The position numbers and the translations under genes are program-made. A model generated the notes under the pieces. The model saw nothing but the letters and a program-made list of their open reading frames with translations, ran no database searches and had not been told where the DNA came from. Shown here in pieces: positions 1,898 through 10,590 of a stretch of 35,221 bases of DNA; position 1 is the stretch's first letter; each line of letters starts with the position of its first letter. Source of the DNA: Sphingobacteriales bacterium (GTDB taxonomy: Bacteria > Bacteroidota > Bacteroidia > UKL13-3); assembly GCA_021298155.1 (NCBI GenBank), contig JAJTEN010000023.1:1-35221 (forward strand), given 5' to 3'.

Positions 1898-2657
1898 ATC
1901 CTACTCTAGCTTTTTTACAGGTCTTTTTTCTTAGGTAGAGATGCGGATTAACTTCTGCAGCCATATTACTGATTTTGGGTTGATTGCAAAAAATAGTTGA
2001 GGCGTTAATTAGGCCATGCGAAAAAGCCCAAGCCGTTAACTGCTGACTATTTTTTAAATCTAATGACTTAAGGATATAACCCCTGTATTTTTCTATGCTC
2101 GATGTTTCATAACCCAAGGTTTCTGCAATAAATTGAGAATTTTCTCCCTGACTTACATAGCGGATAATTTTTTTCTCGAGCGGACTCAAACTATTGATCC
2201 AATAACTTTCATCTTTGGTTTGAAAAGTTCCAATTCGGGTTAATTCATCCCAACAACTGATGTGTGTGGCATCTTCATAGGTAATTCTACCTTCCATTAT
2301 TCGGGGCAGTAATTGATGAATAATCTCGCTTGATTTCTGACAATAATTTTGCGAACCCATTCCCATCATTTCTTTCATCACAGTTGGGTAGTATGCATGT
2401 GAAACCAAGAGGTGTTTCATTTCGGCATTTTTTGCAATAAGGTTTCTGCACGTTTCAATACCATTTAAAAGAGGTAAACGATAATCAATAACTACAGCAT
2501 CAAAATCTACTTTGTGGTCGCTAATGTGGTTAATAAAATCTACACCAGTCATAAAGGAATGGACCACTTCAATTTGGCCCTTGCGCAAAAAATCATTGGT
2601 TAAAGCAGCCATGTCTGTGGGGTTATCTTCAACCAAGGCAATTCGAATAGTTTTCAT
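1896..2657 (-). CDS. Response regulator, REC domain plus LuxR-type HTH
   Basis: 253 aa. N-terminal receiver domain (about 1-125): acidic pair E10/D11, phospho-acceptor D58 in VVIDYRLP, S86 in the switch position and K108 in NYCQKSS. The C-terminal segment (about 155-215, LSPLEKKIIRYVSQGENSQFIAETL) has the NarL/LuxR helix-turn-helix pattern. It should bind DNA after phosphorylation by a histidine kinase. No kinase is nearby, so it is an orphan. It is convergent with gmd (15 bp between stops) and divergent from the membrane operon at 2910, whose expression it might control; that is only positional inference. A basic tail of about 30 aa follows the HTH. Confidence 0.85.
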   Translation of the reverse strand: MKTIRIALVEDNPTDMAALTNDFLRKGQIEVVHSFMTGVDFINHISDHKVDFDAVVIDYRLPLLNGIETCRNLIAKNAEMKHLLVSHAYYPTVMKEMMGMGSQNYCQKSSEIIHQLLPRIMEGRITYEDATHISCWDELTRIGTFQTKDESYWINSLSPLEKKIIRYVSQGENSQFIAETLGYETSSIEKYRGYILKSLDLKNSQQLTAWAFSHGLINASTIFCNQPKISNMAAEVNPHLYLRKKTCKKARVG

Positions 2658-2909
2658 AGTTTAATTTTGGGTTACAATCAATTAAGTTCATAGATTAATT
2701 TGTTAAAACAATGTTAGCAGATAGGAATAACATTTAAAAAAAATGCAAGGCTTGAACCCAAATTTTTTCCGGTTTTTAGGATAGCGAAAGTCCTTATGAT
2801 AAATAATTTAAATAGAAATGTAAACCATAGATTAATTAATTTTTTGACCCCAATTGCTAAAAAACAATGCTAAATATTTGATTATTTTTCATTTATTTTC
2901 CCACTTTAA

Positions 2910-3320
2910 ATGAAATACATGAATCGGTATTTTTGGGTAATATTAATTGGGCTAATCTGTTTTAATTTTGGTGTACAAAACATGAATTGGTTATTGGCGG
3001 AAAATATGCCTTGTGCTGTGTATGTATTTGATGCGCAGTGCCTCTCCTTTGAGGCATTTCTGCTCAATAAATTCGTTCGCTTAACTAGCAATCTATTAGC
3101 TATTTACTTGGTACAAAAACGGTATTTCCAACTCCACTCCCAAAGTCTATTGCCCCTCTTTATGGGCTTATTGGTTTTGGCAGGTATTGATGTATATTTT
3201 TTACAAACGGATCATTTTCTGGTTTACCGCATCCATCAATTTGTACATCCCGTGGTATTTAGTCCACTTTTAGCCATTATATTGGTTTCCATTTCTATAG
3301 CTAAGCCCAAATTAACCTAA
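2910..3320 (+). CDS. Small membrane protein resembling exosortase F-associated proteins
   Basis: 136 aa with about four hydrophobic segments (near 7-22, 56-69, 81-97, 113-130). NKFVRLTSNLLAIYL (53-67) and HQFVHPVVFSPLLAIIL (109-125) recall the small Bacteroidota proteins annotated as exosortase F system-associated, which end in an R-x-x-I-x-P-x-x-x-L-L-L pattern. No exosortase (XrtF) gene is visible in the window. The next gene starts 3 nt after its stop, so the two are probably co-transcribed and translationally coupled. The family assignment comes from memory of its pattern and is tentative. Otherwise it is an unknown integral membrane protein. Confidence 0.45.
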   Translation: MKYMNRYFWVILIGLICFNFGVQNMNWLLAENMPCAVYVFDAQCLSFEAFLLNKFVRLTSNLLAIYLVQKRYFQLHSQSLLPLFMGLLVLAGIDVYFLQTDHFLVYRIHQFVHPVVFSPLLAIILVSISIAKPKLT

Positions 3321-3323
3321 ACG

Positions 3324-5111
3324 ATGTTACTCCTTATACCCACTGTAATATTGGTTTTAGTAATCTGTTACCTATATGGTATCCTTCCTTTTGTGCTCTT
3401 TAAAACGCCTTTACCCATTAATTTATTTACACCTGTATTACTTGGCTTCGCTGTACTGGGCATTTTAAGTCAGTGGTGTATGTTAGTGGGAGCCATTAAT
3501 GAGGTTTCCGTGATGGCAGTATATTTAGGCGCGCTGCTGGCATATTGGGTTTATGCTAAAACCTATCACCAGCAATTAAAGGCCATACGTAATTGGGTTG
3601 TCTCGCTATCTCCTATCTATACAATAGCTATTGCCTTATTATTTGTATTGTTGCTATACCAAAGTGCCCTACCTACTAAGATTCAAGACATGGCAGCTTA
3701 TTACCTACAAACCATTCAATGGATGCAAAAGTTTGGTGTGGTAAAAGGACTTGGCAATATTTACCCTGCTTTAGGTTTAGGTTCGGCCTGGCATTCGCTA
3801 CTTTGCCTCTTTCAAATTCCAGGTTTCCCGCCATTTTATGGCCTAAATGCGGCAATCATTTTCACAGTTTTTGTTTGGATAGTATATCAACTCAAGCTCA
3901 ATCATACCCAAGAAGAAAAGCCACAAACTACTGTAGCATCGGCCTATTTACTTGCCTATGCCTTAGGCTTATTTCCCATCTCTTTTTTATACCTCACCGC
4001 TCCTAGTCCAGATTTGCCCTTACTGGTTTTTACCCCGCTATTGGTCTATTTTGCGTGGGTAGACAGAGATGCCATTCCAAGTTCATTCACCTTATTGCTG
4101 GCATGCTTTTTATATGCCATTAAACCACCCGCATTGGTGGGCATTGCCATAGGCACATTTACCGTATGGAAGCAGCTAAAAAGAAAACCATGGGCCTTGC
4201 AACTTGGCAGCCACCTATTAATTACCATCCTTTGTTTAACACCCATTGTTTCCAAAAATTTTATTCAAACAGGCTATGCCTTATACCCTGCCGGAGAAAT
4301 TGGCATTGAGGCATACATAGGGAAATGGATGGAAGAACCTAATTCTGCTAACGCATCCGTTCCATCATGGAAAATTCCCACAGATTGGAACAAAGCCTAT
4401 CGAAAAGGCATAGTGGTTTGGGGTTATACAGACAGCATACCCGCAGCGGTTTTTAAAGACAACTTACCCCAAAGTTCTCAGCGATTTTACACCTGGCTGA
4501 GCCGACCCGGTTACAAAGGATTTATGAACACCTTACTCTTTGTTAACTTTATCCTGGCTTGTTTACTCTGCCTATGTATTCGTTTACCGCAGGTGAAATG
4601 GATATACGGCGTACTAATTCCATTAAGTATTATAGAATGGTTTTATTTAACCCAATACCGCTTAATGCTACCCTTGGGTTTAAGCCTCTTTTGTATGAAT
4701 ACCTATACTATTTTTACAGCATGGCCCAAGGCAGCAAAACTACTAAGAACCCTCGCATGGGAACGCTATTATATTGCATTCACCTTGGTATTATTTAGCT
4801 TTTTGTGCTTAGTACCGATGTCGGCATTTAGACAAGCATCGCGAAACAAATCCATTACAAAAACAGATGGGTTTACAACAAGCTATTTACTTGAACCCTA
4901 TCATAAATATGCAGAAGGGAGTTTAGATAGCACCCAAATAAATATTGGCTACATTCACTTTTACAAAGACAAAAATTATTCGTGGAATGCGCCAATTCCG
5001 GCCGTGAGTGCCAGTCACACACGATTTTTATCAACCCATTTTGGCTACCAACTACAAGGCTTTGGCCCTAGTTTAAAAGACGGCTTTTACCTCAAGAAAA
5101 TATCCAATTAA
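3324..5111 (+). CDS. Polytopic membrane protein, LIC_10190-like
   Basis: 595 aa, mostly hydrophobic, with a dozen or more likely membrane segments and a soluble C-terminal part of about 90 aa (after about 505). The loop DMAAYYLQTIQWMQKFGVV (122-140) followed by KGLGN (141-145) and SAWH (154-157) matches the signature I know from LIC_10190-family membrane proteins (D..YHLQ.I.W....VV.GLGN....). These have a GT-C glycosyltransferase-like layout and often occur with surface-sugar genes. The family's function is not established, and a lipid-linked sugar transferase is only an inference. It is the second gene of an operon with the small protein at 2910. Its stop overlaps the convergent bcp stop in a shared TTAA. 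Confidence 0.5.
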   Translation: MLLLIPTVILVLVICYLYGILPFVLFKTPLPINLFTPVLLGFAVLGILSQWCMLVGAINEVSVMAVYLGALLAYWVYAKTYHQQLKAIRNWVVSLSPIYTIAIALLFVLLLYQSALPTKIQDMAAYYLQTIQWMQKFGVVKGLGNIYPALGLGSAWHSLLCLFQIPGFPPFYGLNAAIIFTVFVWIVYQLKLNHTQEEKPQTTVASAYLLAYALGLFPISFLYLTAPSPDLPLLVFTPLLVYFAWVDRDAIPSSFTLLLACFLYAIKPPALVGIAIGTFTVWKQLKRKPWALQLGSHLLITILCLTPIVSKNFIQTGYALYPAGEIGIEAYIGKWMEEPNSANASVPSWKIPTDWNKAYRKGIVVWGYTDSIPAAVFKDNLPQSSQRFYTWLSRPGYKGFMNTLLFVNFILACLLCLCIRLPQVKWIYGVLIPLSIIEWFYLTQYRLMLPLGLSLFCMNTYTIFTAWPKAAKLLRTLAWERYYIAFTLVLFSFLCLVPMSAFRQASRNKSITKTDGFTTSYLLEPYHKYAEGSLDSTQINIGYIHFYKDKNYSWNAPIPAVSASHTRFLSTHFGYQLQGFGPSLKDGFYLKKISN

Positions 5112-5603: not shown

Positions 5604-7397
5604 TTACGGATTTATATCGAACCAACGTTCTGTTTTATTGTTTTTGTTATCTACTACCCGCACCAATACCCGAAAAGCCTTGGCCGATGAAGGATTATTT
5701 TCAAGGTTAAAAATTCTTTCACGCTCTATGTAATATACCTCATCAAAAAGATACGTTAAACGGTCGTTTTTGGCATCAAAATCGCCTAAAATCCACCTTC
5801 CATTTAAGTACATATCGTATGATTTGATTCCAGCACAATCATCACTAATATCAAAATCCCAGCGCAAAGTATCATGGCTATTGCCCATGTATTTTGGCAA
5901 TACACGTTTAACCTTGGGCGCTACTGTATCTAACATAATTTTAAAGAACCCAAAATTACTGGCCTTTGCCTGAACCAAACCCATTGCGTAGTTTCCACCT
6001 ATGCTTACAAAACCATCACCCATATTTTTTGCATAACCAATAAGCAATTTATCTTCTAGTCCATCTACCGGAAGCGGAAGCTTAATAGACACATTAAATG
6101 GCGCATGAACTGGCGTGGTGTAGGTATGGAAAGAATAGGTGTTTGAAATGGCATCCAACTTTTTAGGATAGGTATTTAGGGTATAACAAACCGTATCATA
6201 TATACTTTTTTCATCCATACTTGCCATAAATCCATCTTGTGTTACCAACATGGCTTTACCGGGAAACAAGCACGCTTTATTCTGCATTTGCGTTTCATAC
6301 GCCAGCTTTTCTGCATCTATTTGAGAAGGACCAATAGTATAAAATATTTTTACATAGGTTTTATTTTGGTTCACATCTGCCGCTTCAAAAATGAGCTCAC
6401 CATGGGTATTGGGTTGGGTAAAATGTACGCGACCCTTATGCGCATCTGTTTGGTAGTTGCTAAATTTATTGCCATCATCTACAAAACACTTTTGTACCCG
6501 CAGTTTTTCTAATTTGTAATATGGAAAATCAATATGCGCATTGATGTATTTGGTTTCATCAAAAGCAAACTGATTGAGTGCATGTGTAAATTTATGCGTT
6601 TGGTTCAGCCAGAAAGTATAGGTGTAGAGTCCTTTTGGATCTTTCGAGTTGTGGATATAATCATGCGCATCTATTCCAAATCCGTAGGTATCTGCATCAA
6701 GCAGCAGGGTATCTTTAGACACCAAATAAATATCTTGCCAATAGGCATTTTTGGTATTAAAGGTAATTTGCTTTTTAAGCAATAAACCCTCGCGCACAAA
6801 TTTGTATACAAATATTTTGTTTATTTCTGGGGCAAAATGATCAATGGGCAAAATGCCAAATAAGGCCGGATTAAGGATTTTTTCTGTGCGCGAATCCCTA
6901 ATTTCAAAATGCAAATGCGGACCCGAGCTGGTTCCGCTATTGCCACTTAAACCGATGGTATCTCCTTTTTTAACACGCAAAAAAGGCTTTATAAAAATCT
7001 TATCAAACTCAAAGGTTTGGTTAATATATTGATAGTCGTGAATCCACTCTGCAATAGCACCGTAATACGCATCTAAATGCGCGTAAACCGTTGAGTAACC
7101 ATTGGCATGTTCTATATACAAAGCCTTACCATAGGCGCCACGCGCTACTTTTATTCTGCTTATGTATCCATCTGCAGCGGCATATACAGGCAAGCCTATT
7201 TTGCCATTGGTACGCAAATCTATGCCACTATGAAAATGATTGTCGCGCATAACGCCAAAGGGCGAAACAAAATTGGGCAACGAATCCATGGGATACCGAA
7301 AATAATCTTGCGGATATTTTTGCGCAAAGGCTTGGTTCAGCCCGAAAAAGAGGCAAACCAACAAAGCAACTCGTATGTAACTGCGCAAACTTTCCAA
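5604..7397 (-). CDS. Secreted M23 family metallopeptidase (cell-wall endopeptidase-like)
   Basis: 597 aa. The N-terminal signal peptide runs to about residue 25 (ALLVCLFFGLNQAFA). The LytM/M23 domain spans about 45-170: H56 and D60 in HSGID, H107 in YAHLD, and H161/H163 in GPHLHFEIRD, so all zinc-site and catalytic residues are present. The remaining 400 aa are a beta-rich region of unknown role, common in Bacteroidota M23 proteins. It should cut peptidoglycan cross-bridges or act as a periplasmic activator. The likely start is TTG at 7397, since no ATG precedes the signal peptide. That start lies 3 nt after the stop of the hydrolase gene, which suggests coupling. Confidence 0.88.
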   Translation of the reverse strand: MESLRSYIRVALLVCLFFGLNQAFAQKYPQDYFRYPMDSLPNFVSPFGVMRDNHFHSGIDLRTNGKIGLPVYAAADGYISRIKVARGAYGKALYIEHANGYSTVYAHLDAYYGAIAEWIHDYQYINQTFEFDKIFIKPFLRVKKGDTIGLSGNSGTSSGPHLHFEIRDSRTEKILNPALFGILPIDHFAPEINKIFVYKFVREGLLLKKQITFNTKNAYWQDIYLVSKDTLLLDADTYGFGIDAHDYIHNSKDPKGLYTYTFWLNQTHKFTHALNQFAFDETKYINAHIDFPYYKLEKLRVQKCFVDDGNKFSNYQTDAHKGRVHFTQPNTHGELIFEAADVNQNKTYVKIFYTIGPSQIDAEKLAYETQMQNKACLFPGKAMLVTQDGFMASMDEKSIYDTVCYTLNTYPKKLDAISNTYSFHTYTTPVHAPFNVSIKLPLPVDGLEDKLLIGYAKNMGDGFVSIGGNYAMGLVQAKASNFGFFKIMLDTVAPKVKRVLPKYMGNSHDTLRWDFDISDDCAGIKSYDMYLNGRWILGDFDAKNDRLTYLFDEVYYIERERIFNLENNPSSAKAFRVLVRVVDNKNNKTERWFDINP

Positions 7398-8009: not shown

Positions 8010-8111
8010 CGCTTTACTTGTAAGGCACAAAGTAAGGAAAAATATTTGGCAAATCGAATGAATGGGGTTTGAGGTTATATCTTATCTAAATATAGAAGGT
8101 TTGGCATTGCC

Positions 8112-8168
8112 AGCGCAGCCTTCAACCCGACAAAGATTCCTCCCTGCGGTCGGAATGACGAGCTGCCG
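8112..8168. repeat. 57-bp direct repeat, copy 1
   Basis: Begins AGCGCAGCCTTCAACCCGA and ends GACGAGCTGCCG. It is identical to 8241-8297 except for one C/T difference. It contains a leftward REP-like core: AGATTCCTCCCTGCGG followed by TCGGAATGACG (8134-8160). Confidence 0.95.
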
Positions 8169-8240
8169 TTTAGCAGGAAAAAAACGTCATTTCGAGCGAA
8201 GCGAGAAACCTCTGCACACAAGCGACCGTGCGTCATTTCG

Positions 8241-8297
8241 AGCGCAGCCTTCAACCCGATAAAGATTCCTCCCTGCGGTCGGAATGACGAGCTGCCG
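8241..8297. repeat. 57-bp direct repeat, copy 2
   Basis: Second copy of 8112-8168 with 56 of 57 bases identical, offset by 129 bp. The near identity implies a recent duplication or gene conversion. Confidence 0.95.
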
Positions 8298-8354
8298 ATA
8301 GAAGATATGGCAAATCAAATTGGCGGCTTTGGCCGCCAATTTGATTTGCTTTTT
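8298..8354. repeat. 54-nt insertion with perfect 18-bp hairpin in a repeat copy
   Basis: Arms 8310-8327 (GCAAATCAAATTGGCGGC) and 8332-8349 are perfect reverse complements with a 4-nt loop, followed by TTTTT. After copy 1 the repeat runs GAGCTGCCG directly into TTTAGCAGG and an A-run. After copy 2 the same two sequences are separated by 8298-8351. The structure looks like a terminator, but no rightward gene lies upstream to be terminated, so a small inserted palindromic element is equally plausible. Confidence 0.8.
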
Positions 8355-8429
8355 AGCAGAAAAAAACGTCATTTCGGGCTTAAGCGTAATTACCTAAAAA
8401 TAAAAACCAAATCTTAAAGATTCATTTTT

Positions 8430-8437
8430 TACTTTTG
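8430..8437 (+). promoter_or_regulatory. -7 promoter box of the GIY-YIG gene
   Basis: TACTTTTG is a perfect TAnnTTTG match, ending 16 nt before the ATG at 8454. Confidence 0.6.
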
Positions 8438-8453
8438 TCATTATTAAACCAAA

Positions 8454-8861
8454 ATGAGCAATATTGGATTTGTTTATATAATGACCAACAAGAATAAAAC
8501 CGTGTTGTATATTGGTGTAACAAATAATTTATGTAGGAGGATTTTCGAACATAAAAACCATTTGAACAAAAAATCTTTTACCGACAATTACCAGGTTGAA
8601 AACTGTATATTTTATGAAGAGTTTTCAGATTTCAACCTGGCAATTAAACGAGAAACAGAAATCAAAAAATGGAATCGCGAAAAGAAAGAAGCACTCATCA
8701 ATAAAAAGAATCCTGAGTGGAAAGTACTTGCAACCGAAAAAGGATTCATTCAAAAGAACAACTCCTTCGCTAAGCAAGTATCAGATGTATTGAAAGATTT
8801 TGAAAAAGAATATAATATTACCCCCTTCAATAGGAATGATAATCAGCCTTTGGAAGAATAA
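8454..8861 (+). CDS. GIY-YIG nuclease family protein
   Basis: 135 aa. The GIY-YIG domain fills about 1-90: V7-Y8-I9 and Y19-I20-G21 form the signature pair, R28/R29 with H33 follow in CRRIFEHK, and E67 in KRETEIKKW is the expected metal-binding Glu. Single-domain proteins of this kind (YhbQ/UPF0213-like) are usually 80-100 aa. Here a charged tail of about 45 residues is added (ATEKGFIQKNNSFAKQ and on). It is a putative endonuclease whose target is unknown. It has its own promoter and sits directly beside the REP-like repeat cluster. It is convergent with the M3 peptidase gene (25 bp gap). Confidence 0.9.
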   Translation: MSNIGFVYIMTNKNKTVLYIGVTNNLCRRIFEHKNHLNKKSFTDNYQVENCIFYEEFSDFNLAIKRETEIKKWNREKKEALINKKNPEWKVLATEKGFIQKNNSFAKQVSDVLKDFEKEYNITPFNRNDNQPLEE

Positions 8862-8886
8862 CTAGCAGCCGCACACTTCTATTCCT

Positions 8887-10590
8887 TTACTCCAACTTCT
8901 TCAACTCCTCCGAAACAAAGGCCATCAGGCTTTGAATATAGCTTTCAGAGAAATCAAATTTTACGCCAGCCGCTTCATATATTTCGCCAATGGTTTTGGT
9001 ATAACCCAAACTCAAGGCTTCTTTGTATTGCCTTATGGCTTTGGCTTTATCTAGCAAATAATTACGCCATACAGATAAGGCTCCTAGTTGCGCCATACCA
9101 TATTCTATGTAATAAAATGGCACTTCAAATACATGCAATTGTTTCTGCCAAGTATACGCCTGGAAATGCTCCAAACCTTGCCAATCTACCATGCCTGTTC
9201 CAAATTCTTTGCTTAGGTTCAGCCAGAAATTTTTTCTATCTGCTGCTGTGTGTTTAGGGTTGGTATAAATCCAATGTTGAAACTTATCTATGGTGGCAAT
9301 CCATGGTAAAATTTTGATAATGCCTTCCAAGTGCTCTTCCTTGGCACGCTTTAAATCGGCCGGTTCAGGATAAAAAGCATCTAAACCATCATAGCTAATT
9401 AACTCCATGCTCATGCTGGCCAATTCGGCAACCTCGCTCGGGCAATTTTTAAATGCTGCTAGTTCCAAATCTTTGCTCAAAAAAGAATGCACGGCATGTC
9501 CGCCCTCGTGCACCATGGTTTCTACATCTCTGGTGCTGCTAGCGGCATTCATAAATATAAAAGGCACATTGGTTTCTGCCATCGGGTAATTGTAGCCACC
9601 CGGCGCTTTGCCTTTTCTGCTCTCTAAATCTAATCGGCCCATATCATCCATGGTTTTGATGCAGTAAGCAAAATAATCATCAATGTTGGAGAAACATTTG
9701 ATGGTTTTATCCAACAAATCCAATCCGCTTGTAAAAGGTTCTAAGGCTGGTTTATTTTCTACATCCACCTCCATATCCCAAGGCTTTAAGGTATAACCCA
9801 AAGCCGCCAAACGCTTCTCGTTAAACACCTTTACCAACGGAATTACCTGCTTTTGAATGGCCTCATGAAAGTTAAAACAATCTTGTGGCGCATAATCAAA
9901 CCTGCCCATTTCGGCAAACTTATAATCGCGGTAATTTTCGAAACCAGCATTCACTGCTATTTGATGACGCAAGGCAATCAGTTCATCAAACAAAGAATCC
10001 AGTTCTTCTGCCTTGGCTGCGCGGGCTTCATTAATTTTTATAAAAGCTTCTTCACGCAAGGCTCTGTTGGTGTTTTTTAAATAGTTAGATGCTTGTTGTA
10101 AAGTAAGTTCTTTGCCCTCCATTTCAACCATTAAAGAGCCAATAATGGTTCCATATTTTTGCGAAGTAGCAGCTACTTTGGCCTGCAAAGGCACGTTCTC
10201 TTCTCTAAAAATAGCCATCTCTTGCTTTATGCCACGTAAGTATATAAAATATTTGGCCTGATCCAACGCGTTAACAAAAGGACTCGCCATCATTTTTTTA
10301 TTCAGCAAATCATTGTACGGAGCTATCTTAGGTTCAATTTCATTTACAAAAAACAAGTAGGCATCTTCCAACTCTTTATTGTTGGTATCGCAGGTCATTT
10401 TTACATATCGCCAAGCCAAATTTTCGCTTACAAAAGCTTCCAATTCGCTGCGGTGCAATAACCACGCTTCAAGTTCTGCAACCGAGTTTATCTCGCGCTG
10501 CAACAACTGCTCAAAATACGGAGCTAACACATCCCAAGAAGTTACCTTTAACTTATCGGCTAAAAATTTGTGGTGGGTTATTGTAATCAT
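8887..10590 (-). CDS. M3 family oligoendopeptidase
   Basis: 567 aa. The zinc site HEGGH is at 361-365, with the third ligand expected at E389 in SEVAELASMSME. GGYNYP, MNAASSTRDVETMVHEGGH and FYYIEYGMAQLGAL are typical of PepF-like M3 oligoendopeptidases, and the length fits. It is a cytoplasmic enzyme that degrades short peptides. ATG start at 10590. The upstream 140 nt carry heptamer repeats (10620-10647), which could affect its promoter, and the terminator of the DUF5606 gene. Confidence 0.93.
   Translation of the reverse strand: MITITHHKFLADKLKVTSWDVLAPYFEQLLQREINSVAELEAWLLHRSELEAFVSENLAWRYVKMTCDTNNKELEDAYLFFVNEIEPKIAPYNDLLNKKMMASPFVNALDQAKYFIYLRGIKQEMAIFREENVPLQAKVAATSQKYGTIIGSLMVEMEGKELTLQQASNYLKNTNRALREEAFIKINEARAAKAEELDSLFDELIALRHQIAVNAGFENYRDYKFAEMGRFDYAPQDCFNFHEAIQKQVIPLVKVFNEKRLAALGYTLKPWDMEVDVENKPALEPFTSGLDLLDKTIKCFSNIDDYFAYCIKTMDDMGRLDLESRKGKAPGGYNYPMAETNVPFIFMNAASSTRDVETMVHEGGHAVHSFLSKDLELAAFKNCPSEVAELASMSMELISYDGLDAFYPEPADLKRAKEEHLEGIIKILPWIATIDKFQHWIYTNPKHTAADRKNFWLNLSKEFGTGMVDWQGLEHFQAYTWQKQLHVFEVPFYYIEYGMAQLGALSVWRNYLLDKAKAIRQYKEALSLGYTKTIGEIYEAAGVKFDFSESYIQSLMAFVSEELKKLE

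Follow-up and report, generated by a model that had tools for sequence, protein, structure and literature searches.

CGTC-tagged REPs are widespread bacterial short repeats whose source has been an open question since 2013, when Di Nocera et al. defined them and found that tag-outward dimers predominate (Di Nocera et al., 2013; PMC3733652). A dedicated transposase was apparently missing, no association with RAYT genes was seen, and the superfamily was found to take in dRS3 of Neisseria as well as RPE-4 and RPE-6 of Rickettsia (PMC3733652). Repeats of this type lie beside a small GIY-YIG nuclease gene in the stretch of DNA analysed here (the window: 35,221 nucleotides, contig JAJTEN010000023.1 of assembly GCA_021298155.1, from a Sphingobacteriales bacterium). 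An initial annotation, working from position only, had guessed that the two form a repeat/nuclease unit in which the nuclease stands in place of a RAYT. Do the repeats and the gene belong together, and could such a nuclease be the enzyme that CGTC-tagged REPs seem to lack?

The Window Locus

The variable segment of the window is made up of the following features.

8048..8886, no strand: whole variable segment, repeats and gene, 839 bp (comparison with relatives)
8103..8160, no strand: REP dimer copy A, tags outward (sequence comparison and family-pattern search)
within 8103..8160: left tag of copy A, degenerate, GGCATTGCCAGCG
8134-8159, minus strand: right REP of copy A, intact, GTCATTCCGACCGCAGGGAGGAATC
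8185..8217, plus strand: single CGTC-tagged REP, CGTCATTTCGAGCGAAGCGAGAAACCTC (core positions and family pattern)
8231..8289, no strand: REP dimer copy B, intact, tags outward, CGTCATTTCGAGCGCAG...CTGCGGTCGGAATGACG (64-nt direct repeat shared with copy A, 95% identity)
8263-8288: minus-strand REP of copy B
8367..8379, plus strand: truncated REP carrying the fifth core, CGTCATTTCGGGC
8454..8861, plus strand: single-domain GIY-YIG nuclease gene, 135 aa (PF01541, E 7e-17)

The five cores reported in both orientations beside the gene are all there, being of the type CGTCATT(T/C)CG(A/G) and starting at 8186, 8232 and 8368 on the plus strand and at 8159 and 8288 on the minus strand. The two near-identical direct repeats are also real, but at 64 nt (8105-8168 and 8234-8297, 95% identity) they slightly exceed the 57 bp first given. 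Two core pairs had been thought able to form hairpins. Copy B folds as a single stem-loop (z -4.4, with none of 200 shuffles equally good), whereas the degenerate copy A folds no better than chance (z -0.5). The stretch 8136-8217 is intermediate (z -2.5). All the repeats are on the left of the gene and none on its right. They are rare in the genome and clustered at the gene, so that the comparison of local enrichment with genome-wide abundance speaks for the unit: allowing up to 3 mismatches, a 26-nt family pattern matches 8 times in the 2.5-Mb window genome, as against no match for a reversed control, and three of these copies lie no more than 320 bp from the nuclease gene. The locus is best explained as a partly decayed unit, with two REP dimers and further REPs to the left of the gene and none to the right. 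An Rfam scan of the window region returned no match, nor did PADLOC.

The protein is, as first described, a single-domain GIY-YIG protein. Its catalytic set is intact (Y8, Y19, R29, H33, E67 and N86, all in invariant alignment columns) and includes the Tyr, Tyr, Arg, Glu and Asn residues of the GIY-YIG family (Y8, Y19, R29, E67, N86). The AlphaFold model has a pLDDT of 92.5, and a helix is predicted at residues 105-120 of the C-terminal tail (about residues 95-135); this tail had been called extra, but it is partly common to the closest relatives, L040 and L041. The nearest folds are UPF0213 and then Slx1, a structure-selective nuclease. The modelled fold thus supports a structure-selective nuclease, with no activity shown.

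Two further observations concern the same genome. A perfect 18-bp palindrome, GCAAATCAAATTGGCGGC-TTTG-GCCGCCAATTTGATTTGC, unmentioned in the initial annotation, lies between the REPs at 8310-8349; a sibling with other outer arms is found at G000:C42 ~6990-7030, again with a REP on either side, and L153 has a copy that differs in sequence. It is possibly a second repeat family. The window genome also holds a second small GIY-YIG match (L002, G000:C7:14643), which has an internal TGA and no REPs; its 39.7 bits place it outside the REP clade described below.

One Nuclease Clade and One Hairpin Type

Homologues of the window protein are present in 92 of 147 related genomes, and some carry stop codons, which fits decaying elements, as expected. 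The three closest (L040, L041 and L042), whose lack of repeats would have told against the unit, all have them. To go further, bacterial and archaeal species genomes were scanned with alignment A1, giving 80 homologous loci from many phyla with at most 10 kb on each side. The first core pattern used, GTCATTNNGA, proved too narrow, and 36 of the 80 loci appeared negative until a stem-based detector was applied; loci without this core mostly hold variants, such as GTCATCCCG...CGGGATC. The hairpin type sought was GTC, a stem ATNNN/NNNAT and C, the detector requiring GTC, a 5-bp stem starting with AT, a loop of 3-45, the matching arm and C.

Already for the first core the density is 3.3 per kb in the 250 bp next to the gene vs 0.05 per kb at 7-10 kb; permuted or reversed cores show no rise near the gene, or a weak one at most. 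It is present within 250 bp of 44/80 GIY genes vs 12/349 other small ORFs. With the structure detector, a hairpin is found within 400 bp of the gene in 69 of the 80 loci, and on both sides in 56. The density of tagged hairpins falls about 80-fold, from 6.8/kb within 150 bp of the gene to 0.085/kb at 7-10 kb. Ten control tags (GTAG not among them), run with a 6-bp-stem version of the detector, gave nothing comparable beside the genes. Other intergenic DNA has only 0.44 repeats per kb vs 4.3 at nuclease genes, so that an intergenic position alone is no explanation. We are highly confident that this GIY-YIG clade is paired with CGTC REPs.

The pairing stops at the edge of the clade. Among 154 loci scored against the family HMM, 113 of the 129 at 90 bits or more are flanked, 87 of them on both sides, and 16 have no detectable hairpins; below 90 bits only 3 of 25 are flanked, none on both sides. 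A well-supported branch of the nuclease tree parts the high-scoring from the low-scoring group. Within related Bacteroidota genomes, homologues of middling similarity are flanked in 16 of 20 cases and weak ones in 2 of 20, several genomes being common to both sets. The small UPF0213/YhbQ proteins (1zg2, 1ywl) resemble the window protein in fold and size (UPF0213), but E. coli YhbQ, at 33.8 bits, is below the clade boundary of about 90 and has no adjoining CGTC REP. The best NCBIfam match, to a model for group I intron endonucleases, does not reach the cut-off, and a tblastn search of phages with the clade member L085 found no match.

Layout of the Unit

Once near copies had been removed, 78 loci were left, and in 50 of them the hairpins closest to the gene point their tags outward, where 25% would be expected (p 4e-13); such a tag-outward unit spans a median of 422 bp. 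The basic unit is thus best described as [GTC-hairpin > nuclease gene < hairpin-GAC], of about 420 bp. Fuller forms exist: in Azospirillum lipoferum 4B a complete 85-nt tag-outward dimer lies on each side of the gene (fold z -9.5 and -10.6). Close-neighbour REPs at nuclease loci show a mild excess of HH (87) over TT (67) and HT (58), and a sample of the Bacteroidota genome G102 gave 17 HH and 0 TT.

The hairpins agree with CGTC REPs in tag and stem start. Next to the stem stands an unpaired tag, seen at 8185 and 8231 of the window and on the opposite strand, with a CCTC variant in Sinorhizobium. The stem has complementary AT in its first and second positions and is followed by a short tail, giving GTC-AT...AT-C hairpins. 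Alphaproteobacterial and Neisseria copies fit, by eye, the 8-9 bp stem and 4-5 bp loop of CGTC REPs, and those of Bacteroidota often have 5-bp stems with longer, partly paired loops. Single REPs of Chryseobacterium fold only weakly as DNA, so the hairpin claim there rests on covariation and not on energy.

Tandem GIY-YIG matches with near-identical scores, 500-600 bp apart, are found at G064:C5:13139-14004 and G039:C60:56583-57344; they are likely unit duplications via recombination between REPs.

The Stem Follows the Nuclease

The arms covary, in an analysis without detector bias: among the 20 stems that occur, 357 of 589 GTCAT arms (60.6%) have a matching arm, a figure that drops to 1.6% once arms of unlike stems are exchanged. 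On the nuclease tree, stem type needs 34 changes; free shuffles need at least 54, and those confined to a phylum at least 50. Most decisive is the comparison inside genomes, where protein identity and stem similarity are correlated over 23 paralogue pairs (rho 0.71, p 1.6e-4) and no pair below 55% identity has a common stem. Between genomes, proteins of at least 60% identity share stems at a mean of 0.58 vs 0.18 over all pairs. Judged from these comparisons of sequence, the hairpin stem tracks the nuclease tree and not the host, and divergent paralogues of the same genome differ in stem. The samples used for HMM scores, for middling and weak homologues and for stem similarity overlap, and related species are non-independent; of these statistics, the safest are the test on paralogues inside one genome and the shuffling within phyla.

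Gain and Loss of Whole Units

The units are intergenic, between unrelated genes, and are neither in an intron nor at a conserved coding site. Several species of Chryseobacterium have the unit between the genes for a barnase-like RNase and a barstar; at the same site L129 has 27 bp and L135 has 18 bp, without any repeat, and C. gilvum (L102) has no unit there and one elsewhere. In A. lipoferum 4B a unit separates sufB from sufC and is absent in five other Azospirillum species, and in Shinella it is present in WSC3-e and HZN7 and absent in S. zoogloeoides. The window behaves likewise: its segment 8048-8886 occupies 839 bp vs 27 bp in G006, the closest species with an empty site, and is also missing in other species of the genus. 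Two of the features of a transposable element are thus seen, namely ends near GTC/GAC and empty orthologous sites. A target-site duplication could not be read, the intergenic DNA being too diverged in every filled/empty pair, and no near-identical pair marking a recent insertion was found. Comparison shows that the nuclease-hairpin pair appears and disappears as a unit, its movement by the enzyme being unobserved.

Some sites have received other cassettes. In place of the window segment, G004 and G001 carry REPs and a RelE-type toxin-antitoxin pair, with no GIY-YIG gene. L153, of the same genus, has a fuller REP at the point of 8367-8379, and what comes next is not the nuclease gene but a toxin-antitoxin pair; such a RelE-type pair with REPs is found at the window locus in L151 as well as L153, which makes the FAH-M3 peptidase junction a cassette hotspot. 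At one Chryseobacterium intergenic site (L085 ~1500-2500 vs L102 ~9936-10333) the cassettes also differ, one species having a Y1 transposase unit with ends GGAACGGG..TTTAGCCCGTT and the other a GIY-YIG/CGTC unit. On a Planktothrix plasmid (L237), a unit has a type IIL restriction-modification gene on one side and DISARM drmA on the other.

The proposal of a repeat/nuclease unit in place of a RAYT now has support well beyond position: the association extends through the clade and is specific to it, has a preferred orientation and shows covariation, and units are present or absent at orthologous sites.

Repeats Away from the Gene

Where strong homologues are present, the excess of repeats over the whole genome is larger (p 6e-4; for the window's family alone, p 8e-6). 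Most relatives, however, show no genome-wide surplus of the core relative to its reversed control, so spread outside the units is modest. In the Pumilibacter genome G157 (that of L066), which has one clade nuclease, there are 713 core matches vs 29 in the reversed control. This small genome is unusually rich in REPs, which form regular arrays with a tag-outward spacing of about 102 bp. The single-contig Bacteroidota genome G102 has 772 core matches vs 82 in the control, and no clade nuclease was found in it, although its CGTC REPs, which have two stem types, number in the hundreds. REPs can therefore persist, and perhaps spread, without the clade nuclease, as REPs can outlive RAYTs. G102 is useful for asking what follows the loss of the nuclease.

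A Partner Enzyme for CGTC-Tagged REPs?

One clade and one hairpin type recur together across phyla, and the two come and go as a unit. This suggests where the missing REP partner enzyme is to be sought, and this GIY-YIG clade is the best candidate for it. It is probable, in our judgement, that the clade nuclease drives the spread of CGTC REPs as a dedicated, structure- and sequence-selective partner, with cleavage, movement and target site not shown. We infer that the enzyme would bind the extruded or single-stranded REP hairpin, for instance on the lagging strand or in a cruciform, and would cut near the unpaired GTC tag; host repair or copying might then put the unit, or gene-less REP dimers resembling REPINs, at new sites. 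GIY-YIG enzymes hydrolyse DNA without a covalent intermediate. It is for this reason that placement is assigned to host repair or copying, and that transposase-like strand transfer is unlikely. Whether all this amounts to a class of mobile elements of about 420 bp, in which a hydrolytic GIY-YIG nuclease of 95-135 aa spreads its cognate CGTC REPs and gene-less dimers and which explains CGTC REPs, including dRS3 of Neisseria, in at least 12 phyla, is an evenly balanced matter.

Against nuclease-driven spread stand the REP-rich G102 without a clade nuclease, the 16 of 129 clade members without detectable hairpins, the modest spread outside the units in most relatives, the one-sided repeats of the window and the REPs that G001 and G004 keep without the gene. 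GIY-YIG domains are classic homing nucleases, and the REP might be a target only, the gene being copied into cut REPs through REP recombination while the REPs spread otherwise. The NCBIfam match to an intron endonuclease model, the agreement of repeat type with nuclease and the existence of REPs without the gene would all suit such homing. It remains unlikely, since the empty sites of Chryseobacterium L129 and L135, Azospirillum ramasamyi and A. oryzae have no REP at the insertion point, so that hairpins and gene appear together, and since the hairpins on either side of the gene are both whole and in most cases point their tags outward. Free-standing and group I intron GIY-YIG homing endonucleases have the same catalytic fold and are themselves gained and lost as genes; here there is no intron, no coding-sequence target and no large DNA-binding extension, and the unit is bounded by inverted REPs. 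More doubtful still is a self-regulated nuclease serving the host, with hairpins acting as mRNA terminators or stabilisers or as processed cruciforms, without mobility. Strong hairpins on both sides would be in keeping with it, as would the three small COG2827 genes, one with an SOS box, of Caulobacter crescentus (PMC1839093), a CGTC-positive species (PMC3733652). Left unexplained would be the dimers and arrays away from the gene, the presence or absence of whole units, the hundreds of dispersed copies in G157, the patchy distribution and the switching of stems along with the nuclease lineage.

Movement of the repeats by Y1/RAYT transposases, with the GIY-YIG gene as passenger, was rejected as having hardly any chance of being right: Y1 transposases do occur in 17 of 21 genomes checked, but there is no Y1 (PF01797) in the window genome, nor in G072, G147 and G148, all of which carry the pair. 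Of the 80 loci, no more than 3 gave a match to a Y1 query, always more than 7 kb away, and CGTC REPs are reported not to flank RAYT genes (PMC3733652). Just as poorly placed is the idea that REPs and small GIY-YIG genes gather independently in permissive intergenic sites. The window site and the Chryseobacterium site did take in a toxin-antitoxin pair and a Y1 unit; other intergenic regions and other GIY-YIG clades, however, lack the repeats, and the matching of repeat type to nuclease within one genome contradicts a merely shared hotspot.

Relation to Known Repeat Systems and Significance

The repeats share with CGTC REPs their tag (CGTC/TGTC/CCTC), a stem starting from AT, an unpaired tail and tag-outward dimers. 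Genera known for these REPs recur here with the nuclease: Neisseria (L232), Azospirillum, Sinorhizobium and Bradyrhizobium (L106). The difference is that the 2013 paper had no dedicated enzyme, whereas here, in many phyla, a GIY-YIG clade is flanked by the repeats and matched to them. At L232 (~2519-3608) a Neisseria gonorrhoeae GIY-YIG ORF lies inside dRS3 repeats, with no gene annotated there. With RAYT (TnpA_REP)/REPIN systems the likeness extends to hairpins with a tag, dimers set head to head, arrays next to a single enzyme gene, other copies without the gene and repeat types specific to the enzyme. Here, however, the tag is GTC with a stem in AT, and not the GTAG of RAYT REPs, and the enzyme is a GIY-YIG nuclease (PF01541) and not a Y1 HUH transposase; the chemistry must differ, and this would be the greatest difference between the two. 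No description of GIY-YIG proteins with REP-type repeats was found in the open-licence papers searched, most subscription journals and preprints being uncovered.

With a matched nuclease and many natural repeat/enzyme pairs, the source of CGTC-tagged REPs becomes a question that can be put in the test tube. If the nuclease does drive them, then hydrolytic cutting with host repair, and not Y1 transposition, can be what drives a REP family, and a function would be given to a very common unassigned family, the "GIY-YIG nuclease family protein" (COG2827-like).
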